Position numbers and translations under genes: made by a program. Below, one piece after another: positions 342 to 14,524 of a stretch of DNA of 58,406 nt. The stretch lies in contig CACYPV010000020.1 in assembly GCA_902776375.1 (NCBI GenBank), positions 1-58,406 on the forward strand. The letters run 5' to 3'. The stretch's first letter is position 1, and each line of letters starts with the position of its first letter. The stretch is from an uncultured Ruminococcus sp. Its GTDB lineage: Bacteria > Bacillota > Clostridia > Oscillospirales > Acutalibacteraceae. Below the pieces are notes generated by a model that searched no databases, was not told where the DNA came from, and saw only the letters and a program-made list of their open reading frames with translations.

Positions 342-2768
342 TTGCTTGGAGCAATTATCGGTGATACAGCCGGTTCAAGATTTGAATGGCACAATCATAA
401 GAATAAGGATTTTGAACTCCTTTCTCATATCAAAGGCTGCAGGCCTACTGACGATAGTGTTATGTCTTTAGCTGTTGCGCAGGCTATTATGGATTGCACC
501 GGCGACTATCAGAACCTTAGCATTCGTGCTATTGAACGAATGCAAGAGTACGGTCGTAAATACCCTCACGCCGGATATGGCGGAAAATTTCATCAATGGA
601 TTTATGACAGTGATCCCCGCCCTTATAACAGTTGGGGAAACGGTGCTGCCATGCGTGTCAGCGCATGCGGTTTTGCAGCCGGCTCGATTGAAGAGGCCAA
701 AATGCTGTCAAAATCTGTCACGGAAGTAACTCATAATCATCCGGAGGGTTTGAAAGGAGCGGAAGCAACAGCTGTCGCCATCTATCTTGCTAAATCCGGA
801 AAAAGCATGGTGGAAATCCGTGACTATATCGAGGAGCATTATTACAAGATAAAATTCAAGCTGGATGACATCCGCGCCGATTATACATTTGATGTTTCCT
901 GCCAAGGGTCTGTGCCGCAGGCATTGGAGGCGTTTTTTGAGTCAACCGGATTTGAGGACGCTATTCGCAATGCTGTTTCTATCGGCGGCGACAGCGATAC
1001 AATTGCTGCCATAGCCGGAGGCATTGCCGAAGCATACTACGGCATTCCCGCTGATATCCGAAAGCTTGCGTTGACTTTTCTTGATGCGGAGCAGCTCGAA
1101 ATACTGAATGCATTTGAATCCAATTACGGCGTCATTTTGGAGAAAAGTGCCGGTGAAGGAATTTCAAGGGCAGCGGCTTATTTGGCAAAAACCGAGTCCC
1201 TCTCGGGAAATCGAAGTGCTGCAATGACAGAAGCGGTTCGTGTTACGGATGAAGCGCAGCACGACGGCGAGGTTGATAATCGGGAGACGACTGCTAATGC
1301 GCTCTACAATCACCTATATGGCGCATGTAATATTCTTCGCGGACCGATTGATCAGGATGATTACAAATCATATGTTATCCCGATTCTGTTTTTTAAGCGG
1401 ATTTCGGATGTTTATGATGAAGAAACAACAGATAATGAGCAGCTGTACGGTGAAGATATTGAGTTTTATCCCGAGGAAGAACTGCACACTTTTATAATTC
1501 CGAACGGCTGTCATTGGAATGACGTTCGGAACACAAGTGAGGATGTAGGCAAAGCGATTGTTGATGCCATGATGGGTATTGAACACGCCAATCCCGATAC
1601 GATGGCGGGACTGTTTTCATCCTTTGACGATGCAAACTGGACAGATAAAACCAAGCTGGATGATGAACGTCTGAAAGACCTGATTGAGCATATGTCTGCT
1701 CTGCCCGTTGGCAATCGCAATTATTCTGCCGATGTTATGGGTGACGCATACGAGTATCTGATCAAAAAGTTTGCGGATATGAGCAAAAAGAATGCGGGAG
1801 AGTTTTACACGCCGCGTTCTGTCGTTAAGCTCATGGTGCGTTTACTTGCACCGAAATCTGGAGACTCCGTTTACGATCCCGCTTGCGGAACGGGCGGCAT
1901 GCTTATCGAAGCCATTCGCAGTATGGATGATGAAAAAGCGTCCTACGGAAAAATCTACGGGCAGGAAAAGAACCTTTCCACATCGGCTATTGCCAGAATG
2001 AACCTATTTCTCCACGGAGCAAAGGAATTTAAAATCGTGCGAGAGGATACGCTGCGCAAACCGGTTTTTATCCATAACGGACAACTGCAGCAATTTGATT
2101 GTGTGCTTGCCAATCCTCCCTTCGGCTTGGATCATTGGGGTGCGGACATTTTTGAGAACGATCAATGGGGACGTAATATCTGGGGCAGTCCCACTGATTC
2201 CAATGCTGATTACGCATGGCTGCAGCACATGTACAAATCCATGAAACCCGGAAAAGGCCGCTGCGCCGTTGTGATGCCGCAGGGCGTTCTGTTTCACGGA
2301 GGCCGTGAGGGCGATATCCGTAAAAAGATGATTGAAACCGATTGTGTTGAATGCGTAATCGCGCTGGTCGGCAACCTGTTTTACGGTGCTGGAGTATCCG
2401 CTTGTATTCTCTTTTTGAATAACAATAAACCGCTTGCCCGGCGAGGCAAAATATGCATGATTGACGCTACCGGTATTTATACCGCACAGCGCGCTAAAAA
2501 TATTATGACCGAAGCAGATACCGACAAGGTATTCCGCCTTTGGGAAAACTACGAAAATGTAATGGATAAGTGTGCGATCGCTGACCTTGAAACCATTCGT
2601 TCAAAGGATTACACGCTTTCCGTTAACACCTATATTGAAAAAACGCCGGCTCCGCCGATTGACCCTAAGAAGATCCGCGCTGAATTTTATGCTGCGCTGA
2701 AAGAAGTGCGTGACAGCGAGGAAGCGCTGATGCAATTGCTTAAGGAAGGAGGATACATCGATGGCTGA
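342..2768 (+). CDS. hsdM: ADP-ribosylglycohydrolase fused to type I methyltransferase HsdM
   Basis: This is a two-part protein of about 808 residues. Residues 1-265 form an ADP-ribosylglycohydrolase (ARH/DraG family) with the metal-binding TDD motif near residue 38 and GGDSDT near residue 216. A polar linker of about 50 residues follows. Residues 320-800 form a complete HsdM: an N-terminal HsdM helical domain, the AdoMet motif DPACGTGG near 513 and the catalytic NPPF near 592. TTG at 342 is preferred as start because it gives the family's usual beginning MLGAIIGD and leaves AAAGG about 11 bases upstream; GTG at 333 is the alternative. The second hsdM overlaps its end by 8 bases. The HsdM half should methylate adenine with HsdS. 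The role of the hydrolase half here is inference: removing ADP-ribose from DNA or from the enzyme, perhaps against phage transferases. Confidence 0.9.
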   Translation: MLGAIIGDTAGSRFEWHNHKNKDFELLSHIKGCRPTDDSVMSLAVAQAIMDCTGDYQNLSIRAIERMQEYGRKYPHAGYGGKFHQWIYDSDPRPYNSWGNGAAMRVSACGFAAGSIEEAKMLSKSVTEVTHNHPEGLKGAEATAVAIYLAKSGKSMVEIRDYIEEHYYKIKFKLDDIRADYTFDVSCQGSVPQALEAFFESTGFEDAIRNAVSIGGDSDTIAAIAGGIAEAYYGIPADIRKLALTFLDAEQLEILNAFESNYGVILEKSAGEGISRAAAYLAKTESLSGNRSAAMTEAVRVTDEAQHDGEVDNRETTANALYNHLYGACNILRGPIDQDDYKSYVIPILFFKRISDVYDEETTDNEQLYGEDIEFYPEEELHTFIIPNGCHWNDVRNTSEDVGKAIVDAMMGIEHANPDTMAGLFSSFDDANWTDKTKLDDERLKDLIEHMSALPVGNRNYSADVMGDAYEYLIKKFADMSKKNAGEFYTPRSVVKLMVRLLAPKSGDSVYDPACGTGGMLIEAIRSMDDEKASYGKIYGQEKNLSTSAIARMNLFLHGAKEFKIVREDTLRKPVFIHNGQLQQFDCVLANPPFGLDHWGADIFENDQWGRNIWGSPTDSNADYAWLQHMYKSMKPGKGRCAVVMPQGVLFHGGREGDIRKKMIETDCVECVIALVGNLFYGAGVSACILFLNNNKPLARRGKICMIDATGIYTAQRAKNIMTEADTDKVFRLWENYENVMDKCAIADLETIRSKDYTLSVNTYIEKTPAPPIDPKKIRAEFYAALKEVRDSEEALMQLLKEGGYIDG

Positions 2769-4260
2769 ACGAATGACAATTGATGAACTCAAGTCGTATC
2801 TTTGGCAATCGGCTGTATTGCTCCGTACCAATATCGACGCGGGCGCGTATAAGCAGTATATCTTTCCATTGATGTTTTTTAAGAGGATCTGCGATGTTTA
2901 TGATGAAGAAACGGAAAAAGCCATCGCAGAGTATGGTGATGATATCGAATTCTATCCAGAGGAAGAGCTGCATACATTTATTGTTCCAAAAGGGCAACAT
3001 TGGAACGATGTGCGTCAGGTTACTGAGGATGTAGGCAGAGCGATAGTCACCGCTTTCAAAGAAATCGAAAAGGCAAACGGTGAAAAGATGACCGGCATTT
3101 TCGGTGACGGCGCATGGACGAATAAAAACCGTTTGCCCGACAGACTGCTGAAAGACTTGCTGGAGCATTTTTCCTCCAAAACGCTGTCATTGGAGAATTG
3201 CCCAGAAGATGAGTTGGGACAGGGATATGAGTATTTGATTAAGCAGTTTGCCGATGACAGCGGTCACACTGCACAGGAGTTTTACACAAACCGAACCGTA
3301 GTACATTTGATGACAGAAATTTTGCAGCCGCAGAGCGGAGAGTCTGTTTATGACCCGACCTGCGGCAGTGCGGGCATGCTCATTTCCTGTATTGCTCATT
3401 TAAAATCACAGGGAAAAGAGTGGCGGAATTTACAGCTATACGGGCAGGAAATCAACCAGCTGACATGCGCTATCGGAAGAATGAATTTGTTTCTGCACGG
3501 CGTAGAGGATTTTCATATTGTCAATGACGATACGCTCAAAAATCCTGCTTTTATCGAGCGGGGACAGCTGCAGCAGTTTGACATTGTCCTTGCCAATCCG
3601 CCGTATTCCATCAAGCAGTGGGATCGCGGCGCTTTTGAAAATGATAAATACGGACGCAATTTTTTGGGTACGCCTCCGCAGGGACGTGCGGATTTTGCGT
3701 TCTTTCAGCATATCTTGAAAAGCTTGAAGCCCGATACAGGCCGCTGCGCAATACTTTTTCCGCACGGAATATTGACTCGCGATGAAGAGAGTGAAATGCG
3801 TAGAAAGCTTGTGCAGATGGATGTTGTTGAAACTGTCATCGGAATTGCAAAGAATCTTTTCTATAACTCGCCGATGGAAGCATGTGTAGTAATTTGTCGG
3901 ATGTCTAAACCTATAGAAAGACGTGGGAAAGTGCTTTTCATAGATGCGAAAAAGCTTGTAATACGAAAAAATTCCGAAAGCTATTTGGAAGAAGAGCATA
4001 TAAAGACTATTGTTGATTGTTACAAAGACTTTATGGAAATAGAAGGTTTTTCTGCAATAGCTACCACAAATGAAATAATTTGCAATAACGGTACACTGGG
4101 TGTACCTAAGTATGTGAGAAAAGGAGAATTACTCGACTCTAATGAGGGAACAATTGATGATGCGCTTGGAGACTGGATGGCTGGACAAGTTGTGATGCAA
4201 GAAGAATATACTACTCTGATAGAGATGATCTCTAATGAAGGGAGTGGATTGAATGTCTAA
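2761..4260 (+). CDS. hsdM: Type I restriction-modification methyltransferase subunit (second HsdM)
   Basis: This is a 499-residue N6-adenine methyltransferase of type I systems. An HsdM N-terminal helical domain (residues 5-140) precedes the N6_Mtase domain, which has the AdoMet motif DPTCGSAG at 198-205 and catalytic NPPY at 279-282. It lacks the hydrolase domain of the upstream gene but is clearly related to that gene's HsdM half; both share the stretches FKRI-DVYDEET and EFYPEEELHTFI. It overlaps the upstream gene by 8 bases and hsdS by 8 bases, so the three genes are probably translationally coupled. Two different intact HsdM subunits in one operon are unusual and suggest an M1-M2-S complex, or alternative M subunits. 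Confidence 0.93.
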   Translation: MAERMTIDELKSYLWQSAVLLRTNIDAGAYKQYIFPLMFFKRICDVYDEETEKAIAEYGDDIEFYPEEELHTFIVPKGQHWNDVRQVTEDVGRAIVTAFKEIEKANGEKMTGIFGDGAWTNKNRLPDRLLKDLLEHFSSKTLSLENCPEDELGQGYEYLIKQFADDSGHTAQEFYTNRTVVHLMTEILQPQSGESVYDPTCGSAGMLISCIAHLKSQGKEWRNLQLYGQEINQLTCAIGRMNLFLHGVEDFHIVNDDTLKNPAFIERGQLQQFDIVLANPPYSIKQWDRGAFENDKYGRNFLGTPPQGRADFAFFQHILKSLKPDTGRCAILFPHGILTRDEESEMRRKLVQMDVVETVIGIAKNLFYNSPMEACVVICRMSKPIERRGKVLFIDAKKLVIRKNSESYLEEEHIKTIVDCYKDFMEIEGFSAIATTNEIICNNGTLGVPKYVRKGELLDSNEGTIDDALGDWMAGQVVMQEEYTTLIEMISNEGSGLNV

Positions 4261-5398
4261 AGTGCTTCTTGGTGATGTCGTTAATCTTATTAAAGATAAA
4301 GTCGACAAGGATACTACCGATTTGGAATACTATGTTGGTGGCGAACATATTGATGGCGATGAAATCATGATACGGCGCAAAGGGATTATTCAAGGTAGTA
4401 CAATAGGACCTGCCTTTCACATGCGGTTTCAACGTGGTGACGTGCTTCTCATGTCGAGAAATCCCCATCTTCGTAAAGCCAGCATGGTAGATTTCGATGG
4501 GATTTGCTCGAATGTTAGTTATGTCTGCAGAACAAAGGATGAAGGGGTACTGCTACAGTCTCTTCTGCCATTCATCTTGCAAACACTGGATTTTTGGCAA
4601 TTTGCAGAAGAAAACAAAAAAGGGGGTCTCCCATTTTTTCTGAACTGGAAAGACTTTGCGCGGTTTGAATTCGAGCTTATTCCTATTGAACGACAGCATA
4701 AGATATCAGATTTGCTTTGGGCAATGGAACGTGTCAAAAATGCTTATAGGGAGCTTATCGCCAGAACCGACGACTTGGTGAAATCGCAATTTTGCGAGAC
4801 TATTACTTCCTTGCTGGACGAAGGGAAAATCATACCGTTAGATGATTTGGTTGAGAATGATAGGCCGATTACTTATGGCATTCTTAAGCCCGGAACAGGA
4901 TACCCGGGTGGAGTTCCAGTGGTCAAAGTCAAAGACATGCGCGATGGAGTGATAGATCAGACCAAACTTCTACTAACTACACCTGAGTTAGACAATCGAT
5001 ATCGTCGTTCCCGTCTTCGCGCAGGAGACCTACTTATTTCGATAAGAGGTTCTGTGGGACGTATGGCAGAAGTGCCGAAAAATCTTGAAAATGCAAATAT
5101 TACACAGGATACAGCGCGACTTACAATAAAACCTGAATATAATAAAATCTACATTCGGGGTGTATTGGAATCCGAACCTTTACAACGAGACATGGAGCGA
5201 AACATACGCGGTGTTGCTGTCAAGGGAATCAATATTGGGTATCTTCGGTTACTCGGCATTCCAATGTGCGACAGGATTGAGCAAGACAGACTTGCAAAAC
5301 TATATCAACAAAGCGATAAATCAAAATTTGCAGCCCGGCAGGCGCTGAAAGAAATCACCGACGCGCAGAAAGCGTTGATGAAGAAAATATTTGAATAA
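4253..5398 (+). CDS. hsdS: Type I restriction-modification specificity subunit HsdS (expressed copy)
   Basis: This 381-residue specificity subunit has two target recognition domains. TRD1 spans residues 1-150. The central conserved helix follows (AMERVKNAYRELI to LVKSQF, about 160-180). TRD2 then runs to the C-terminal conserved helix containing QQSDKSKFAARQAL and ending KKIFE. It sets the DNA sequence read by the methyltransferase and restriction complexes. It overlaps hsdM by 8 bases. The SQF codons at 4784 begin a 14-bp repeat that recurs at the start of two silent TRD cassettes downstream, making the TRD2 half a likely exchangeable module. Confidence 0.93.
   Translation: MSKVLLGDVVNLIKDKVDKDTTDLEYYVGGEHIDGDEIMIRRKGIIQGSTIGPAFHMRFQRGDVLLMSRNPHLRKASMVDFDGICSNVSYVCRTKDEGVLLQSLLPFILQTLDFWQFAEENKKGGLPFFLNWKDFARFEFELIPIERQHKISDLLWAMERVKNAYRELIARTDDLVKSQFCETITSLLDEGKIIPLDDLVENDRPITYGILKPGTGYPGGVPVVKVKDMRDGVIDQTKLLLTTPELDNRYRRSRLRAGDLLISIRGSVGRMAEVPKNLENANITQDTARLTIKPEYNKIYIRGVLESEPLQRDMERNIRGVAVKGINIGYLRLLGIPMCDRIEQDRLAKLYQQSDKSKFAARQALKEITDAQKALMKKIFE
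4784..4797 (+). repeat. TRD cassette repeat, copy a (inside hsdS)
   Basis: TCGCAATTTTGCGA is a near-palindrome (TCGCA, 4-base centre, TGCGA) read in frame as Ser-Gln-Phe-Cys-Glu. It sits at the junction between the central conserved helix and TRD2. An identical copy occurs at 6647 and a near copy at 7210, each at the same point of an HsdS-like reading frame. It is the likely crossover site for domain exchange. Confidence 0.7.
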
Positions 5399-5439
5399 AA
5401 AACATGGCGAAGGATGTTGGTAAAAAGGAGATTATCAAC

Positions 5440-6399
5440 ATGACAAGCCAAACGATAACCAAAATTGAGCAGCAAATGCTTGCGTACTTAGACAACAGCC
5501 AGATGAAGCAGCTCCATGCTGTTCTGACCGCCTGTTTGCAGGAGCCGACTGCTCAACCCGACATCAACCATGTGCAGCTTTTTTTGGCGGCAAAGCGGGT
5601 TGAGGGTTGCTCGGAGAAAACCATACGGTACTATGACTCTACCCTTAGAAACGCGCTTGATACAATCAACAAGGACGTGCTTCAAATCACTACCGACGAT
5701 CTGCGCTTGTATTTGGATTCATATCAGTCAAACAGAGCCGCAGGCAAAACCACCATTGACAACATCAGAAGGATTCTCTCCAGCTTTTTTTCGTGGCTGG
5801 AGGACGAAGATTATATTATGAAAAGTCCCGTACGCCGTATTCATAAGGTGAAAACCTGCAAGACCGTCAAGGAAACCTATTCGGATGAGGCGCTGGAAAT
5901 CATGCGCGATCACTGCGGAAACAGCCGCGACTTGGCACTTATCGATCTGCTCGCCTCAACCGGAATGCGTGTCGGCGAGCTCGTGCTGCTTAATCGGGAC
6001 GATATTGATTTCACAAATCGGGAATGTGTTGTTCTTGGCAAGGGTAACAAGCAGCGAAAGGTGTATTTTGATGCAAGAGCGAAGATTCACCTGAAAAACT
6101 ATCTGCAAAGCAGGACGGACGATAATCCTGCGTTGTTTGTATCACTGCAAAAGCCGTATAACCGGCTGCAAATACGGGGAATTGAAATCCGTCTGCATGA
6201 CCTCGGGGAAAAACTGAACCTGTGCAGAATCCATCCGCATAAATTCCGCAGAACACTCGCTACCATGGCAATTGACAAGGGTATGCCGATTGAGCAGGTA
6301 CAGCAATTACTCGGGCACCAAAGCGTTGACACGACACTGCAATATGCAATGGTAAATCAGGCAAACGTAAAGCAATCGCATAAAAAGTATTTAGGGTAG
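5440..6399 (+). CDS. Tyrosine recombinase (XerC/D-like) within the hsd locus
   Basis: This is a 319-residue site-specific recombinase. An N-terminal SAM-like core-binding domain (about 38-125) precedes a catalytic domain with Arg177 (TGMRVGE), a Lys in the GKGNKQRK hairpin near 201-207, HKFR at 267-270, His293 (LLGH) and nucleophile Tyr302. The set appears complete. ATG 5440 is chosen over the upstream in-frame ATG at 5404 because AAAAGGAG lies about 10 bases before it. The gene lies between the expressed hsdS and two silent hsdS half-genes. Recombinases in such positions in other bacteria switch type I specificity, so that role is inferred here. Its own recombination sites are not proven. 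Confidence 0.9.
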   Translation: MTSQTITKIEQQMLAYLDNSQMKQLHAVLTACLQEPTAQPDINHVQLFLAAKRVEGCSEKTIRYYDSTLRNALDTINKDVLQITTDDLRLYLDSYQSNRAAGKTTIDNIRRILSSFFSWLEDEDYIMKSPVRRIHKVKTCKTVKETYSDEALEIMRDHCGNSRDLALIDLLASTGMRVGELVLLNRDDIDFTNRECVVLGKGNKQRKVYFDARAKIHLKNYLQSRTDDNPALFVSLQKPYNRLQIRGIEIRLHDLGEKLNLCRIHPHKFRRTLATMAIDKGMPIEQVQQLLGHQSVDTTLQYAMVNQANVKQSHKKYLG

Positions 6400-6403
6400 T
6401 ATT

Positions 6404-6646
6404 ATGCAATTATCAGAGAGTATTCATACCATTTTATCGTATGAGGGTGTTGATGAACAACGGATTAGCACCATAACGCGGTTTATTCTTTCATACTTAG
6501 ACGAAACACAGAGAAGAGGTTTTGTGATTTCTCACTCGGAAAAAATGGAGTTTAATCATAATCTCAGAAAACTTCTTATTGAAAATAAAGTTCCTAATGC
6601 CAAAAATGTGATTGATCAGATAAACAGTTTAATATTCGACCCGTGA
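6404..6646 (+). CDS. Small protein of unknown function next to the recombinase
   Basis: This 80-residue, mostly helical, charged protein begins 4 bases after the recombinase stop codon and is probably translated with it. No family is recognised. Its TGA stop is directly followed, in the same frame, by the 14-bp repeat that opens the silent TRD cassette at 6647, so its 3' end forms one edge of the exchangeable region. A role as recombination directionality factor or accessory protein would fit the position but is only a guess. No strong ribosome binding site is visible. Confidence 0.6.
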   Translation: MQLSESIHTILSYEGVDEQRISTITRFILSYLDETQRRGFVISHSEKMEFNHNLRKLLIENKVPNAKNVIDQINSLIFDP

Positions 6647-6660
6647 TCGCAATTTTGCGA
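6647..6660 (+). repeat. TRD cassette repeat, copy b
   Basis: This copy of TCGCAATTTTGCGA is identical to the one inside hsdS at 4784 and is in the frame of the following TRD cassette (Ser-Gln-Phe-Cys-Glu). It follows directly on the stop codon of the small gene. Confidence 0.7.
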
Positions 6661-7209
6661 AAGGTTCATTCTCGGCGACAGATATCCATTAGTACGGTTA
6701 GATATGGTTTCTGATGTTAGCAGTGGGCTAACCAAGAATTCAAAGAGACCTACGTTTGAAAATAAAATGCCTTACCTTCGGGTTGCAAACGTGTTTTTTG
6801 ATTGTATCGACCTTACAGATATTCAAACAATCGGTATTCAGCAAGGGGAAATAGAAAAAACAATGCTGAAAAAAGGAGATGTTCTGTTTGTTGAGGGCAA
6901 TGGAAGTCCTGACCAAATAGGCCGTGTAGCAGTTTGGGAAGGACAATCTGAACCGATGTTGCACCAAAACCACATAATTAAAGCCCGTCCTGACAAAAGC
7001 AAGGTTTTGTCAAAATATTGTATGTACTACTTTATGACTCAGGAGGGGCGGAATCAGATATTAAGCAACGCAAAAACTACATCTGGATTATTCACGCTGA
7101 GCCTTAGCAAAATTTCAGGATTTGTATTTCCGTTAGCTCCATTGGAAGAACAGCAACAGTTTTTGCGGATAGTCAACCAAAGCGATAAATCAAAATTTGT
7201 CGCTTCAAA

Positions 7210-7223
7210 TCGCAATTTTTCGA
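7210..7223 (+). repeat. TRD cassette repeat, copy c (imperfect)
   Basis: TCGCAATTTTTCGA differs from copies a and b by one base, which breaks the palindrome on the right arm. It is in frame with the second silent cassette (Ser-Gln-Phe-Phe-Glu-Met-Phe-Gly-Asp, the usual HsdS junction). Confidence 0.6.
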
Positions 7224-7836
7224 GATGTTTGGGGATATGGCCGAAAATCCTCACGGATGGCAAATAAAGAGTTTTGTTGATGTTGCAGAAATCGATGGAA
7301 CAATGACGACCGATTACGAAAAATATGCGGATTATCCTCATATTGGAATTGACAGTATCGAAAAAGATACAGGAAGGTTATTTGGATACCGGACCGTGCG
7401 CGAAGACAATGTGAAGAGCGGAAAATATATTTTCGGTTCACAGCACATTATTTACAGTAAGATAAGACCAGCACTAAACAAAGTAGCTCTGCCTGATTTT
7501 GAGGGCTTATGTTCTGCAGATGCATACCCAATTCTGCCGAGAGAAAACATTTGCGTCAAAGAGTTTTTAGCACACGTTTTGCGTTCGGAGTATTTTTTGC
7601 AGTATATCTTGGCGTTCAGCGGTAGATCACAGATGCCGAAAGTAAATCGGAAACAAATCGCTGGATTTAGATTTCCGCTACCGCCAATTGAAATGCAGAA
7701 AGCATTTGTTGCCTTTATGCAACAAAGCGATAAATCAAAAAAACTCGCTTCCGAAACATCAGAAGCGATATCCATAGCAGAGAATATTATAGGAGGTATG
7801 AACTATGCCGGGAACTTTCACGGAACAAAATGTTGA
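7210..7836 (+). pseudogene. Silent HsdS TRD cassette 2 (half-gene)
   Basis: This is a second TRD half-gene. It opens with SQFFEMFGDM, the classic start of the second HsdS domain, and contains a full TRD with the QMPKVNRKQIAGFRFPLPP segment. It ends with QQSDKSKK and a short tail that overlaps the start of hsdR by 32 bases. ATG 7225 could start translation but lacks a clear ribosome binding site. Fusion to TRD1 of hsdS at the repeat would give a 385-residue HsdS. Its reading frame differs from that of cassette 1, so the two are separate modules, not one broken gene. Confidence 0.8.
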
Positions 7837-10717
7837 AGATATGGTTATCCATGCGGTTGAGTCAAACGGATGGAGCTATTATCGCGCCGAAGATCTGCCA
7901 AGAGCGGAATCGGATGTGCTGGTTGAAACGCACCTGCGCGACGCCCTTATCAGATTGAACCCTTGTATTGCAGAAAACCCGGCGCATGCCGATACCGTTA
8001 TTTATAAACTGCGGGCACTGATTTCCACGGTGCGTCCGCACGATCTTGTTACTCAGAACGAACGATTCAAAAAACTCATCTTTGAGGAAAACAGTTTTCC
8101 GTTTGATAAAGACGGCCGTTCTATCAGTATCAGGTTTTTTGATTATGATAACCCGGATAATAATACCTTCGTTGTAACAAATCAGTGGGTATATCCGCAA
8201 AAGAGCGGCGGAAAACGGCTTGATGTCGTCCTGCTTATCAACGGATTCCCCGTTGCAATCGGCGAAATGAAGTCGCCTGTCAGACCGTCGATCAGTTGGA
8301 TGGATGGCGCGGGTGATATACTTAATTATGAGAAATCTATTCCGGAGATGTTCGTCACAAATGTTCTGAACTTCTCCACGGAAGGCAAATGCTTCCGCTA
8401 CGGCGCTATCAATGCGCCTGTTACGCTTTGGGGACCGTGGTACTCTAACATTCCGCATAAAGAAGGCGATTTAGCAAAGGTTCAGCGCGCGGTATCATCC
8501 ATCACGCGGAAAGAGGTTATTCTCGATCTGTTCAGATATTTTACGCTGTTCTCAACAGATAAGCACAATCGAAAGATAAAAATCGTGTGCCGCTATCAGC
8601 AGTATGAAGGCGCTAATCTCATTGTGGATCGTGTAAAGGCAGGATATCCGAAAAAAGGCTTGATATGGCATTTCCAAGGAAGCGGAAAATCCTTGCTGAT
8701 GGTTTTTGCGGCGCAAAAGCTGAGAATGGTCAAAGAACTGAATGCGCCGACCGTTATCATTGTCAATGACCGCATAGATTTGAGCGGACAGATTTTCGGC
8801 ACATTTTCTATGGCAGACGTGCCTAACCTTGTTCCGGCTGACACAAACGCCGAATTGATAAGACTTTTGAAAGCGGACTCGCGCAAGGTCATCATCACTA
8901 AAATATTTGAGTTTGCTCAAATAACGGAAGCTGTCAATTACCGGGATAATATAATTTTGATGGTTGATGAAGCCCACAGGACGCAAGAGGGCGATTTAGG
9001 CGCAAGAATGCGCATGGCGTTGCCGAACGCGTTTTTCTTCGGACTTACCGGAACTCCGATTAACAAGCTCGACAGGAACACCTTTGCGACGTTCGGCGCC
9101 ACAGAGGATCGAACGGGATATATGAGCCGCTATTCTTTTGCGGATTCCGTCGGCGACAGGGCAACTTTGCCGCTGCACTTTGAGCCGGTTCCTGTAAAGC
9201 TCCACGTCAATCAAGCGGCTATAGATGAGGAATTCAAAGCTCTCACAGATGAAGCGGGATTAACGGAAGAAGAACGATCAAAGGTCGCGCAGCGTGTACG
9301 CATGGCTGCAATTATGAAAGACCCGGAACGCATTAAGGCTGTTTGCGCTCATATTGCGGAGCATTTTATGACAAAGGTGAATCCTAACGGCTTTAAGGCG
9401 CAAGTGGTTTGCTTTGACAGAGAGTGCTGCGTGCTATATAAAAAAGAATTGGATCGGCTCCTTGGTGAAGCTACCTCAACAATTGTGATGGATACCAACA
9501 ACGATAAAGCCGATCAATTCAAAAAGTGGCGCAGAACAAGAGAAGAAGAAGCAAAGGTATTGGACGATTTCCGTGACCCGAACAATCCTCTGGAAATTGT
9601 TATAGTCACCAGTAAACTGCTCACGGGCTTTGATGCGCCAATATTGCAGGTTATGTACCTTGATAAGCCCATGAAGGATCATACCTTGCTGCAAGCCATT
9701 TGCCGCACTAATCGCGTTTATGGACAGGACAAGACATACGGCTTGATTGTTGACTATGTGGGCATATTTGATGATGTTGCAAAAGCACTCTCGTTCAACG
9801 CTGAGATGGTGGAAAAAATTATCAGTAATATTGAAAGCGTTAAAGCTAAAGTTCCTCAGCTTGTTGAGAATTGTATCGGATTTTTCCCCGGCGTTGACAG
9901 AACCCGTGATGATTGGGAGGGGTTGGTAGAAGCACAAGACTGCTTGCCAAATGATGAAATGAAGGATAAATTCGGTGCGCAATACCGCGTGCTGAACCGC
10001 GTTTGGAATGCTCTGTCGCCCGACAGCTGCCTAAATCCCTTCAAGGATGATTACAGATGGTTGTCAAAGGTTTATGATTCAATACGCCCGACCGATGAAC
10101 GCGGTAAGCTCATTTGGGCTGCGCTTGGTCCCAAGACAATTCAGCTGGTTCACGAGAACATTTCGGTTGAATCCGTAGATACAGATGAAGACATTCTTGC
10201 AATGGATGCCGAAATCATTCAAAAGTTCATTGAAGGCGACCCTGAATCGGAAAAGAAGCGCAAAAAGATTGAAATTGACCTTGCAGCAATTATCCGCAAA
10301 CGACCGGATGATCCTCGCTTTATTGCGCTCGGCGCAAGGATGGAAAAACTGCGTGAAGAACACGAAGCCGGTCTGCTTACCAGCATGGAATTCCTGAAAG
10401 CATTGTTAGAGCTTGCAAAAGACGTTGTGCAGGTTGAAAAAGAAGCAGTCCCCGAAGATAAGATCGATAAAGGAAAAGCAGCATTAACTTCTTTGTTTCA
10501 AACCGTCAAAAACGACAGCACGCCGATAATCGTTGAGAGGATTGTAACCGATATTGATGGCATTGTAAGAATTGTTCGCTTCCCCGGATGGCAGAATACA
10601 TCTACGGGAAGAAAAGAGGTAAGCAAAAATCTTCGCGATGTAATAATGCGAAAATACCGAATAAAAGATCAGGAGGTATTTGCGAAAGCATATAGTTATG
10701 TCGAGCAGTATTATTGA
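7805..10717 (+). CDS. hsdR: Type I restriction endonuclease subunit R
   Basis: HsdR cuts unmethylated DNA after ATP-driven translocation. The 970-residue product has the N-terminal PD-(D/E)xK nuclease (Asp140, then GEMK with Glu154 and Lys156) and Walker A GSGKS at 292-296. The DEAH-type motif VDEAH follows near 387-391, then GLTGTPI, TSKLLTGFDAP and the QAICRTNR motif VI. A helical C-terminal region binds the M-S core. All key residues are present, so it should be active. An AGGAGG lies about 8 bases before ATG 7805. It overlaps the end of the second silent TRD cassette and is followed 29 bases later by a DUF262 gene. Confidence 0.95.
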   Translation: MPGTFTEQNVEDMVIHAVESNGWSYYRAEDLPRAESDVLVETHLRDALIRLNPCIAENPAHADTVIYKLRALISTVRPHDLVTQNERFKKLIFEENSFPFDKDGRSISIRFFDYDNPDNNTFVVTNQWVYPQKSGGKRLDVVLLINGFPVAIGEMKSPVRPSISWMDGAGDILNYEKSIPEMFVTNVLNFSTEGKCFRYGAINAPVTLWGPWYSNIPHKEGDLAKVQRAVSSITRKEVILDLFRYFTLFSTDKHNRKIKIVCRYQQYEGANLIVDRVKAGYPKKGLIWHFQGSGKSLLMVFAAQKLRMVKELNAPTVIIVNDRIDLSGQIFGTFSMADVPNLVPADTNAELIRLLKADSRKVIITKIFEFAQITEAVNYRDNIILMVDEAHRTQEGDLGARMRMALPNAFFFGLTGTPINKLDRNTFATFGATEDRTGYMSRYSFADSVGDRATLPLHFEPVPVKLHVNQAAIDEEFKALTDEAGLTEEERSKVAQRVRMAAIMKDPERIKAVCAHIAEHFMTKVNPNGFKAQVVCFDRECCVLYKKELDRLLGEATSTIVMDTNNDKADQFKKWRRTREEEAKVLDDFRDPNNPLEIVIVTSKLLTGFDAPILQVMYLDKPMKDHTLLQAICRTNRVYGQDKTYGLIVDYVGIFDDVAKALSFNAEMVEKIISNIESVKAKVPQLVENCIGFFPGVDRTRDDWEGLVEAQDCLPNDEMKDKFGAQYRVLNRVWNALSPDSCLNPFKDDYRWLSKVYDSIRPTDERGKLIWAALGPKTIQLVHENISVESVDTDEDILAMDAEIIQKFIEGDPESEKKRKKIEIDLAAIIRKRPDDPRFIALGARMEKLREEHEAGLLTSMEFLKALLELAKDVVQVEKEAVPEDKIDKGKAALTSLFQTVKNDSTPIIVERIVTDIDGIVRIVRFPGWQNTSTGRKEVSKNLRDVIMRKYRIKDQEVFAKAYSYVEQYY

Positions 10718-10746
10718 TGGTATTACAGTCATGACAGGAGGAAGAA

Positions 10747-12558
10747 ATGGCTATAAATATTGCACCAAAATCACTGGACACGGACTTGAGCGAGCTTATG
10801 CGTGATGTTGAATCAGGCAAAGCCCAGCTCCCTGAATTTCAGCGCAGTTGGACATGGGATGATAACAGAATCATTGGTATTCTTGCAAGCCTTTCACAGG
10901 GCTATCCGATGGGTGCCATCATGCGGCTTGCATACGGTAATGAAAATGTTAGGTTCAAATACCGAACAATAGAAGGTGTGAAAAAAGTTGAAATTATTCC
11001 CGATTATCTTGTTCTGGACGGGCAGCAGCGCCTTACTTCAATATACCGTGCGACATGCTGTAAAGAACCGGTGAATACCACTACGGAAAAAGGTAAGAAC
11101 ATCAAACGCTTTTACTATCTTGATATCAACAAGTGCCTTGACGAAAACGCAGACCGCGATGAAGCAGTTTTTTCTGTTCCTGCCGACCGCATGATAAAGA
11201 CAAATTTTGACAGGGATGTTGTTCTTGATTTATCGACTCGCGAAAAAGAATTTGAGAATGAGATGTTCCCGTTGAATATTGTGTTTGACAGTGGAGTGCG
11301 CGAAGATTGGGCGGATGGTTACAAGGAATTCCATGGCTACAGCAAAGAATTCATGGAAAAATATAAGCAGTTCAGAACGGATGTGCTTGATACAATTACA
11401 GGATATAAGCTGCCGGTAATTACGCTTGGCAAAGAAACTCCGAGAGAAGCCGTTTGCAAAGTGTTTGAAAATGTTAACACCGGCGGTGTTCCGTTGACTG
11501 TTTTTGAACTTGTTACCGCCACCTTTGCTACATACGAGTTTGATCTTCGCAAGGACTGGGAGGAATGCAGAAATATTATTTGGGGCAAAAACGAACTGCT
11601 CCATACGGATGTTATGTACGGCGTAGATGAGACCGCTTTCCTGACTGCTATAACGCTTTTCACCACATATCACGCCGAAACTATGACGACCTGTAAAAAG
11701 AAAGATGTCCTTTCTCTTGCATTTGAGGATTATCAGGCGAATAAAGCCACAATGCTTGAAGGCTATAAATTAGCGCGGGAATTTTTATTAAATGAGTATA
11801 TTTTCAGAAAGCGCGATTTACCTTATACAACCCAGATCATTCCACTTGCCGCTATTTGTGCGGAAATCGGAAAGACGGTGTTTCACCAGCCTCAAACGCA
11901 GAATAAACTGCGCACGTGGTTTTGGTGCGGAATTATGGGAGAAATGTACGGCGGTGCAAACGAAACACGATATGCCAATGATATGGAAGACGTTGTAGCG
12001 GCAATCATGGGTAAGGAAAGCCAGAACCGCACGGTAAATGCAGCGTACTTCTCGGCAACCCGCCTTATATCTCTCCAAACACGTAACAGCGCTGCATATA
12101 AAGGAATTATGGCGCTTGTATACAGAGGACGATGCCACGACTTTGTTCGGGGGACCACGATTGATATCGTAAAAAGCATGGATGAAGCGCCCGATATCCA
12201 CCATATCTTTCCGGAAGCCTATTGTATCAAAAAGGGTTACAAGAGGGATAAGTGGAATTCTATTATTAACAAAACGCCGTTGCTTCCCGAGTCGAACCGC
12301 ATGATTGGCGGAGAAGCACCAAGTGTTTACAGTAAAAAGATTATGCATAAAGCAGAAATTGATGAAGAAAAGCTCCGCTCTCGGGTTGAATCGCATTTAA
12401 TTGATTACGATCTTTTTGTGACTGATGATTTCGACGGATATTTTATTGCCAGAGCAAAATCACTTATGAAGGTTATAGAGGCAGCAATGGGCAAATCAAT
12501 CGCAGACAAAGGGTCGGAGCAGACAATCAACATTTACGGCGTCAGTTTGGCGGATTAG
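10747..12558 (+). CDS. DUF262 and HNH (DUF1524-like) protein, GmrSD-like type IV restriction factor
   Basis: This 603-residue protein has the DUF262 fold of GmrS-type proteins at its N-terminus, with PEFQR at 29-33 and the signature DGQQRLTS at 91-98. It ends in an HNH-like region (HHIFP at 485-489, followed by spaced Asn residues in INKTPLLPESN). In known GmrSD systems the DUF262 part hydrolyses nucleotides and the HNH part cuts modified phage DNA. Modified DNA as target is inferred from the family. An AGGAGGA lies 5 bases before ATG 10747. The gene follows hsdR by 29 bases and is likely cotranscribed, which makes the locus a type I plus type IV composite. Confidence 0.85.
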   Translation: MAINIAPKSLDTDLSELMRDVESGKAQLPEFQRSWTWDDNRIIGILASLSQGYPMGAIMRLAYGNENVRFKYRTIEGVKKVEIIPDYLVLDGQQRLTSIYRATCCKEPVNTTTEKGKNIKRFYYLDINKCLDENADRDEAVFSVPADRMIKTNFDRDVVLDLSTREKEFENEMFPLNIVFDSGVREDWADGYKEFHGYSKEFMEKYKQFRTDVLDTITGYKLPVITLGKETPREAVCKVFENVNTGGVPLTVFELVTATFATYEFDLRKDWEECRNIIWGKNELLHTDVMYGVDETAFLTAITLFTTYHAETMTTCKKKDVLSLAFEDYQANKATMLEGYKLAREFLLNEYIFRKRDLPYTTQIIPLAAICAEIGKTVFHQPQTQNKLRTWFWCGIMGEMYGGANETRYANDMEDVVAAIMGKESQNRTVNAAYFSATRLISLQTRNSAAYKGIMALVYRGRCHDFVRGTTIDIVKSMDEAPDIHHIFPEAYCIKKGYKRDKWNSIINKTPLLPESNRMIGGEAPSVYSKKIMHKAEIDEEKLRSRVESHLIDYDLFVTDDFDGYFIARAKSLMKVIEAAMGKSIADKGSEQTINIYGVSLAD

Positions 12559-13714: not shown

Positions 13715-14129
13715 ATGGCAAATGTAAAAATATTTGATGAAACTATTGAAGAATACGACAGTGCTTGCGAGGCGGTTCGCAAGGAAAACGCGGAATACTT
13801 GAAATTATTTGAAGCGGATTTGACTGAAAAGGGGTTATCTCCAAAGACGATAAAGAATCATATCAGCAATGTTGACTTGTTTATTAACGAATTTCTTCTC
13901 AGGGAAGATGCTCAGCCTATAGAAACAGGTATCGATAATCTGGATCCGTTTTTTTATTTCTATATTCATAAGTGTATGTGGTCAACACCTGCCTCGGTAA
14001 GAAGTATGGCAGCAGGTCTGAAAAAATTTTATAAATATCGAGGAAGAAGATTATGTTGAAATTTGCGAAGAAATAAAAGAAAGCTTGCCTTTTTGGGTTG
14101 AGGACTGTGAGGAATTCAACGATTGGTGA
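13715..14129 (+). pseudogene. Stand-alone recombinase core-binding domain, frameshifted near its end
   Basis: ATG 13715 begins a 114-residue frame ending at 14059. It matches the SAM-like N-terminal DNA-binding domain of tyrosine recombinases (EKGLSPKTIKNHISNVDLFI to SVRSMAAGLKKFYKY). No catalytic domain follows. One extra base near 14037-14040 shifts the frame; correcting it continues through EEEDYVEICEEIKESL to the TGA at 14127, giving about 137 residues. Short stand-alone domains of this kind occur in Firmicutes, but their function is unknown to me. It starts 14 bases after the previous frameshifted gene, so the two share an operon and perhaps a fate. Confidence 0.6.
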
Positions 14130-14139
14130 TTTTTCGAAT

Positions 14140-14286
14140 AATAACCGACCGTTAAAGCTTTCAAAACGACCTAATATACCCTTAAACCGACCGCTAAAAC
14201 CCTCAAATCGACCGCATAAGTCCTCAAACCGACCGCATATACCTTCAAATCGACCGCTAAAGCTCTTAAATCGACCGCATATACCC
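14140..14286 (+). repeat. Minisatellite of seven 21-bp units
   Basis: Seven back-to-back 21-base units, consensus close to TCAAATCGACCGCATATACCC, lie just after the last gene of the island. Units vary mainly at the second and third positions of each triplet. The unit length is a multiple of three, so both strands stay open through it: Asn-Arg-Pro-x-x-x-x on the + strand and Gly-Arg-Phe-x-x-x-x on the - strand. No spacers separate the units, so it is not a CRISPR array. Confidence 0.85.
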
Positions 14287-14298
14287 AAAAATGAAAAC

Positions 14299-14345
14299 GC
14301 CCTGTTCGCCAAGGAGATCAAATCCTCGGCAAACAGGGCTGTTTT
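14299..14345 (+). terminator. Strong bidirectional terminator closing the defence island
   Basis: The arm GCCCTGTTCGCC at 14299-14310 pairs with GGCAAACAGGGC at 14328-14339, and the stem may extend inward. TGTTTT follows on the + strand and an A-rich stretch precedes it, so it can also work on the - strand. Confidence 0.75.
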
Positions 14346-14402
14346 GCGTTTATATTATTCACGGGCTGAACCGTCAACCCTCAAAAAACCGCATAAATAC
14401 TA

Positions 14403-14443
14403 AGGTGAGCAGCTTTAATACATTGTATCAAAATTGCTCACCT
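14403..14443 (-). terminator. Hairpin after tRNA-Arg
   Basis: Nine-base arms AGGTGAGCA and TGCTCACCT close a loop containing an inner palindrome (ATACAATGTAT). It lies directly beyond the 3' end of tRNA-Arg on the - strand. No clear U-run follows, so it may be a processing or termination hairpin. Confidence 0.45.
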
Positions 14444-14447
14444 AAGA

Positions 14448-14524
14448 TGGCCCGCCCGAAGGGACTTGAACCCCTGTTCTCCGGAATCGGAATCCGTTGC
14501 GTTATCCAGCTGCGCCACGGGCGG
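14448..14524 (-). tRNA. tRNA-Arg (anticodon CCG)
   Basis: This is a 77-base cloverleaf with encoded CCA at 14448-14450. The acceptor arms CCGCCCG and CGGGCGG pair fully. The anticodon loop TTCCGAT carries CCG, reading CGG. The T loop is TTCAAGT. The top anticodon-stem pair is A-G. Its 3' end faces the defence island, a common arrangement at island insertion points. Confidence 0.93.

Follow-up and report, generated by a model that had tools for sequence, protein, structure and literature searches.

An uncultured Ruminococcus sp. (assembly GCA_902776375.1) supplied the window analysed here, 58,406 nucleotides of contig CACYPV010000020.1 (positions 1-58,406), near whose left end an ADP-ribosylglycohydrolase (ARH) domain is fused to the methyltransferase subunit of a type I restriction system. 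The protein, encoded on the forward strand at 342-2768, starts with the ARH domain and ends with a complete HsdM, the two being joined by a linker of 56 residues. It occupies a single unbroken reading frame at 333-2768, 811 residues long when counted from the GTG at 333; the TTG at 342 is the likelier start, because related proteins begin M-LGA at that residue. Pfam recognizes ADP_ribosyl_GH at residues 4-238 (E 7.9e-34), HsdM_N at 326-454 (E 2.7e-21) and N6_Mtase at 465-770 (E 2.4e-97). The single open frame and these matches bear out the first-pass annotation, which had read an ARH domain joined in frame to a full HsdM, and the TDD and GGDSDT metal-site motifs that it reported are both intact. 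It was right that the HsdM is complete, but overlooked that this subunit belongs to an M1M2S system whose HsdM2 is encoded next door.

An ADP-ribosylglycohydrolase domain on a type I methyltransferase

Among solved structures, the best sequence match of the HsdM half is an M subunit of PacII (7vru_A, E 2.6e-132); it also matches the other PacII M subunit (7vru_B), and its best Foldseek match is the PacII M1M2S complex (7vs4_A, E 2.2e-39). NPPF is present in M1 of all 19 fusions described below, and NPPY in M2 of 18, the exception being a locus (L035) where M2 is split and the first piece alone was checked. Because of these PacII matches and the two motifs, we assign the HsdM half, by sequence, as M1 of a non-canonical, PacII-like M1M2S system, a class whose definition in PMC9613975 rests on two different M subunits and on modification with m6A in one strand and m4C in the other. 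The window encodes two such subunits, M1 with NPPF and M2 with NPPY, together with the general components of a type I system: HsdM with HsdM_N and N6_Mtase, HsdS with target recognition domains (TRDs), and HsdR with a nuclease and a superfamily 2 motor. PacII has the same pair of M subunits plus S, but its M1 carries no ARH, as residues 9-496 of the 499 in 7vru_A match the window's HsdM half.

By profile, fold and motif residues the N-terminal half belongs to the ARH/DraG family (PF03747), and it is closest to ARH3 both by sequence and by Foldseek (6g1p_B, E 8.3e-10). It shares motifs and fold with the ARH3 hydrolases, but those deposited in the PDB stand alone, with chains of ~350 residues, whereas here a DNA methyltransferase subunit is attached. 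Twelve motif residues, which we take to be catalytic from the alignment to ARH3 and from what is known of that enzyme, are invariant in all 18 or 19 fusions that cover them; TDD is kept in 18 of 18, and D217, D219 and T220 of GGDSDT (numbered from TTG 342) in 19 of 19. Residues flanking the motifs vary, with TDDT in L212 where others have TDDS, GGDADT in L040, THNHSEG in L211 and SHNHPEG in L037. The ARH domain is under purifying selection, with dN/dS of 0.046, 0.031 and 0.039 in the three pairs of nine with defined dS, two of which have an ARH dS above 2.5. It is less constrained than HsdM, since in one pair (L033/L038) dN/dS is 0.046 for ARH against 0.014 for HsdM, with 0.149 for the linker.

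The linker spans 53-61 residues in all 19 fusions. Only 2 of its 56 positions are invariant, against 99 of 259 in ARH and 157 of 487 in HsdM, and this combination of constant length with variable sequence suggests a positional role. An AlphaFold2 model of the fusion (pLDDT 84.8, pTM 0.55) predicts both domains well and leaves their mutual placement unpredicted; the linker has lower pLDDT and a helix at 291-307.

Recurrence and history of the fused gene

The same fusion is present in 18 further loci, making 19 in total (10 in cellular genomes and 9 in IMG/VR contigs), with pairwise identities of 52-93% and carriers that include various bacteria, several from animal guts, and virus-like DNA. A search of genome contigs returned 10 loci, of which seven carry the fusion (L033-L038 and L040); of the others, L039 ends at a contig edge, L041 is an M1 without ARH, and L042 is a short, weak match. 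Besides the window's own, at least one fusion (G082) was found among the top matches by E-value listed for a sample of 295 genomes of the order and one (G575) among 398 genomes of the phylum, while 300 genomes of the family yielded none other than the window's at E 1e-60. The IMG/VR fusions came from a first scan (L127-L133 and L148, in the best 80 of 127 relatives) and a second (L250, in the best 80 of 124); a scan of IMG/VR with a single protein gave no matches. None of 3474 matching plasmid records and none of 130 matching phage records covers at least 80% of the query. Four of the 19 loci are not wholly readable: the first 87 residues of L148 are missing, a run of N breaks G575, L037 is interrupted within HsdM1, and the HsdM2 adjoining L035 is split.

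This recurrence refutes the idea that the fusion is an assembly join or frameshift artefact, in favour of which we found nothing and which we consider vanishingly improbable; absence from all relatives, part of what the first-pass annotation had said would refute its reading, is contradicted by the same 18 loci. It had also known of no described system of this type, and we likewise found no description of an ARH-HsdM fusion among the open-licence PMC papers listed by our searches.

Eleven of 80 IMG/VR loci (the best 80 of 124) encode an HsdM at least 60% identical to the window's M1; nine of these are fused, L232 is cut at the contig start, and L234 is unfused. Annotated M1-M2-S-R operons without ARH are also carried by plasmids of Exiguobacterium and Streptomyces. 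In a 61-row HsdM tree, computed after removal of duplicates (which also excluded L123) and with a long-branch warning, nine fused M1 rows group in a single branch with 100/100 support, together with the unfused L041 and with L039, which is cut at the contig edge; starred branches of the tree force two changes if L039 is taken as unfused. Well-supported branches force at least two changes between fused and unfused labels in an ARH tree with 10 fused of 52 rows, and one in a tree with 18 fused of 49. For the latter, which left out L148 for its missing start and took in 19 of the standalone and 12 of the viral ARHs, constraining the fused rows to a single group lowers the log-likelihood by 23.0 units (p-AU 0.107); fused ARHs are thus not recovered as one clade in these trees, yet a single clade is not rejected.

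The surroundings of standalone ARHs, in which gene recognition relied solely on BLAST matches with proteins of the window and can miss distant hsd genes, neither show nor exclude an unfused ancestor beside type I genes. L062 has an HsdM-like frame ~10 kb away, with HsdS; L083 has an HsdM-like piece of 210 residues at a distance of ~0.8 kb; the match at L074 is weak and very short; and around the closest standalone ARH (L073, 73% identical) no restriction gene was recognized.

Operon and genomic setting

Features of the window and of related loci
Feature	Locus	Positions	Strand	Basis or remark
ARH domain (PF03747)	window	342-1118	+	start TTG 342, GTG 333 also in frame
TDD metal-site motif of ARH	window	447-455	+	read in sequence
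GGDSDT metal-site motif of ARH	window	984-1001	+	read in sequence
Linker, 56 residues	window	1119-1286	+	length kept, sequence variable
HsdM1 (HsdM_N + N6_Mtase; DPACGTGG, NPPF)	window	1287-2768	+	Pfam, PacII structure matches
HsdM2, second methyltransferase subunit, NPPY	window	2761-4260	+	Pfam, motif
HsdS specificity subunit	window	4253-5398	+	Methylase_S; PADLOC Specificity_I
Xer-type tyrosine recombinase	window	5404-6399	+	Phage_integrase; NF040815
Spare HsdS half, one TRD	window	6704-7267	+	Methylase_S; direct repeats as in HsdS
Spare HsdS half, one TRD	window	7225-7836	+	Methylase_S; direct repeats as in HsdS
HsdR restriction subunit	window	7805-10717	+	HSDR_N, SWI2_SNF2, T1R_D3-like; TIGR00348; GEMKSP, GSGKS, DEAH
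GmrSD_N (DUF262) protein	window	10747-12558	+	PF03235; operon membership uncertain
Pseudo-methyltransferase-like accessory	L208	8228-9847
Pseudo-methyltransferase-like accessory	L209	4974-6587
Pseudo-methyltransferase-like accessory	L210	13300-14895
Pseudo-methyltransferase-like accessory	L211	611-2215
Pseudo-methyltransferase-like accessory	L212	6579-8198
Pseudo-methyltransferase-like accessory	L213	17309-18907
Pseudo-methyltransferase-like accessory	L123	4881-6509
Pseudo-methyltransferase-like accessory	L207	1-1611
Other ARH fusion	L061	7009-9255
Other ARH fusion	L060	7453-9354
Other ARH fusion	L059	8506-10305
Other ARH fusion	L138	5923-7626

Within 4783-7751, two sets of direct repeats (4783, 6646 and 7209; 5309, 7178 and 7723) flank three HsdS TRD cassettes beside a Xer gene. 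Cassette exchange is suggested by a comparison with L033, where a spare HsdS half shares 87% identity with the second, expressed TRD of the window, whereas the two full-length HsdS proteins share 37%. For the GmrSD_N gene directly after HsdR, the best PADLOC matches are PDC-M55C and HEC-05. At L045 3952-6642, two frames with GmrSD_N and GmrSD_C adjoin a standalone ARH that shares 65% identity with the fused domain. To the right of the restriction genes, cgaccgcata-like repeat units, identified by eye within 14100-14524, precede a tRNA-Arg (ccg) at 14448-14524.

A protein of ~535 residues is encoded upstream of the fusion in eight fused loci, adjacent in six and separated by HsdR in L209 and by three genes in L213. 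It has one TRD, is weakly N6_Mtase-like (18.5 and 21.1 bits, cut-off 20.4) and, judged by eye, carries no NPP[FY] motif; its structural model is weak (pLDDT 66), with Foldseek links to Esub1 (8vsr), the best match, and to PacII S. Each of the eight confirmed IMG/VR matches to this accessory has an ARH gene of the present group nearby, a fusion in seven cases and, in L313, one whose ARH frame ends early. It occurs once among the 295 genomes of the order, at a contig end with the neighbour out of view, and is absent from the window's own genome at E 1e-40.

Elsewhere, a phage-family DNA polymerase lies near the operon in L211 and a phage-family exonuclease in L207, while L219 has a MobL relaxase and a type IV secretion system coupling protein nearby; homologues also occur in L212 and L220. 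By the operon in L222 stands a protein whose WYL and WCX domains were detected by profile, and which has homologues in L215 and L221. In L211, a gene of ~640 residues that follows HsdR (10398-12311) matches phrog_4031, of unknown function, and weakly capP; it has homologues in six carrier loci. Other ARH fusions join the domain to SseB and Macro, SseB, DHH/DHHA1 or DUF6508 (see table).

Possible roles of the fused ARH domain

We propose that ARH is a tethered de-ADP-ribosylase that lets the restriction complex, or what surrounds it, go on functioning in the face of ADP-ribosyltransferases (ARTs) of invaders; we favour this role, though we rate it as short of probable. Through the fusion, an active ARH hydrolase would sit at the restriction complex; ARTs of invading phages or plasmids would tag the complex or nearby molecules with ADP-ribose, and ARH would strip these tags so that methylation and restriction carry on. 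For the fused enzyme we infer hydrolase activity, a macromolecular substrate and an outside transferase. The first-pass annotation had itself offered a shield against phage ARTs, cleaning of ADP-ribosylated DNA or a gated restriction step; its reading is borne out in part, for architecture and motifs, whereas these functional proposals stay conjectural. Supporting this role are the 19 fusions, the 12 invariant motif residues, the purifying selection and the preserved linker length. The setting fits it as well, since section 3.8 of PMC9503650 proposes that viral ADP-ribosylation is opposed by those ARG systems that lack a linked ART, and a passage of PMC5512222 has phages injecting ARTs such as Alt. 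DarTG toxin-antitoxin systems likewise pair ADP-ribosyl hydrolysis with phage defence, as outlined in PMC12255303, but their hydrolase is from another family than PF03747, and their linked DarT transferase was matched in none of the 17 carrier genomes or records searched of 19 (those of L035 and L250 were left out) at E 0.001, in a search whose control matched in 1 of 14 and whose virus records may be fragments. This result is weakly consistent with an outside ART; a PF03496 search, whose control matched nowhere, says nothing on ARTs in the carriers.

Several observations weigh against a shielding role. No ART is known to us that acts on a type I restriction complex, and the carriers may encode an ART of their own, DarT being the sole family usefully sought. 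An essential role for ARH is disfavoured because two close M1 relatives do without it: L234, 84% identical to the window's M1 over 299 residues, and L041, 64% identical, with no ARH on its contig. Nor does any of 16 IMG/VR loci with an HsdM 46-54% identical to M1 have ARH in frame, although for seven of these the match to M2 roughly equals or exceeds that to M1. Because these 16 distant and two close relatives lack it, ARH is, as judged from sequence comparison, a modular add-on that joined M1 in one branch and is absent from some members. In our trees four standalone ARHs are placed between fused ones, and by that placement the domain moves independently.

Different roles would account for parts of these data. 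The hydrolase could serve a mobile element as a counter-defence enzyme against host ART-based abortive systems, travelling fused to a restriction gene; nine of the 19 fusions lie in IMG/VR contigs, and the phage-family and conjugation genes noted above lie near some operons, but such an enzyme needs neither fusion to a methyltransferase nor a conserved linker length, and we regard it as unlikely, if well worth considering. Chance fusion of an active housekeeping ARH without a role in restriction would agree with the unfused M1 relatives and with a closest standalone ARH that has no recognized restriction gene around it; retention of motif residues and linker length across fusions sharing 52-93% identity speaks against such a passenger and makes it improbable in our view.

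Two further possibilities concern the substrate. ARH may act on DNA, clearing ADP-ribose from ends or bases as M1M2S-R scans or cuts, which would let sites be methylated or ends processed. The fusion does place ARH on a DNA-binding subunit, and in PMC11833690 the ARH-like bacterial enzyme SCO5809 removed ADP-ribose from phosphate ends of RNA, and ARH3, which the fused domain resembles, is cited for phosphate ends; that paper also records no ARH activity on guanosine-linked ADP-ribose in RNA. Because SCO5809 left that linkage in place, the cleaning of ADP-ribosylated DNA that the first-pass annotation had offered as one option is weakened, and with DarT unmatched in the carriers searched, action on DNA appears rather unlikely. 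ARH might instead gate restriction through a small ADP-ribose signal that it binds or cleaves, such as O-acetyl-ADP-ribose or a cyclic ADP-ribose; ARG-family enzymes can act on O-acetyl-ADP-ribose and a WYL/WCX protein accompanies some operons, but PMC9503650, the source for that activity, argues that ARG domains prefer macromolecular substrates, and we give signal gating little credence.

Returning to protection of the restriction complex, we would describe the locus, again tentatively, as a new kind of type I system with built-in de-ADP-ribosylation, in which ARH-M1 would repair or protect the complex or its DNA and which in one branch would partner a pseudo-methyltransferase-TRD protein. 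One set of counterparts is formed by the ARG-centred host systems of PMC9503650, defined by an ARG with a phosphatase and a Nudix or WYL regulator; ARG without a recognized linked ART is common to both, and a WYL-domain protein stands beside some fusion loci. The partners named in that section are phosphatases, chaperones, restriction endonucleases and helicases, with no type I methyltransferase fusion among them. If our proposal is correct, the fusion would link restriction and ADP-ribosylation, two fields that seldom meet, and would extend the little-explored diversity of non-canonical m6A/m4C type I systems by an enzymatic module. It would also allow one to test directly whether bacterial immune complexes are defended against phage ADP-ribosyltransferases.
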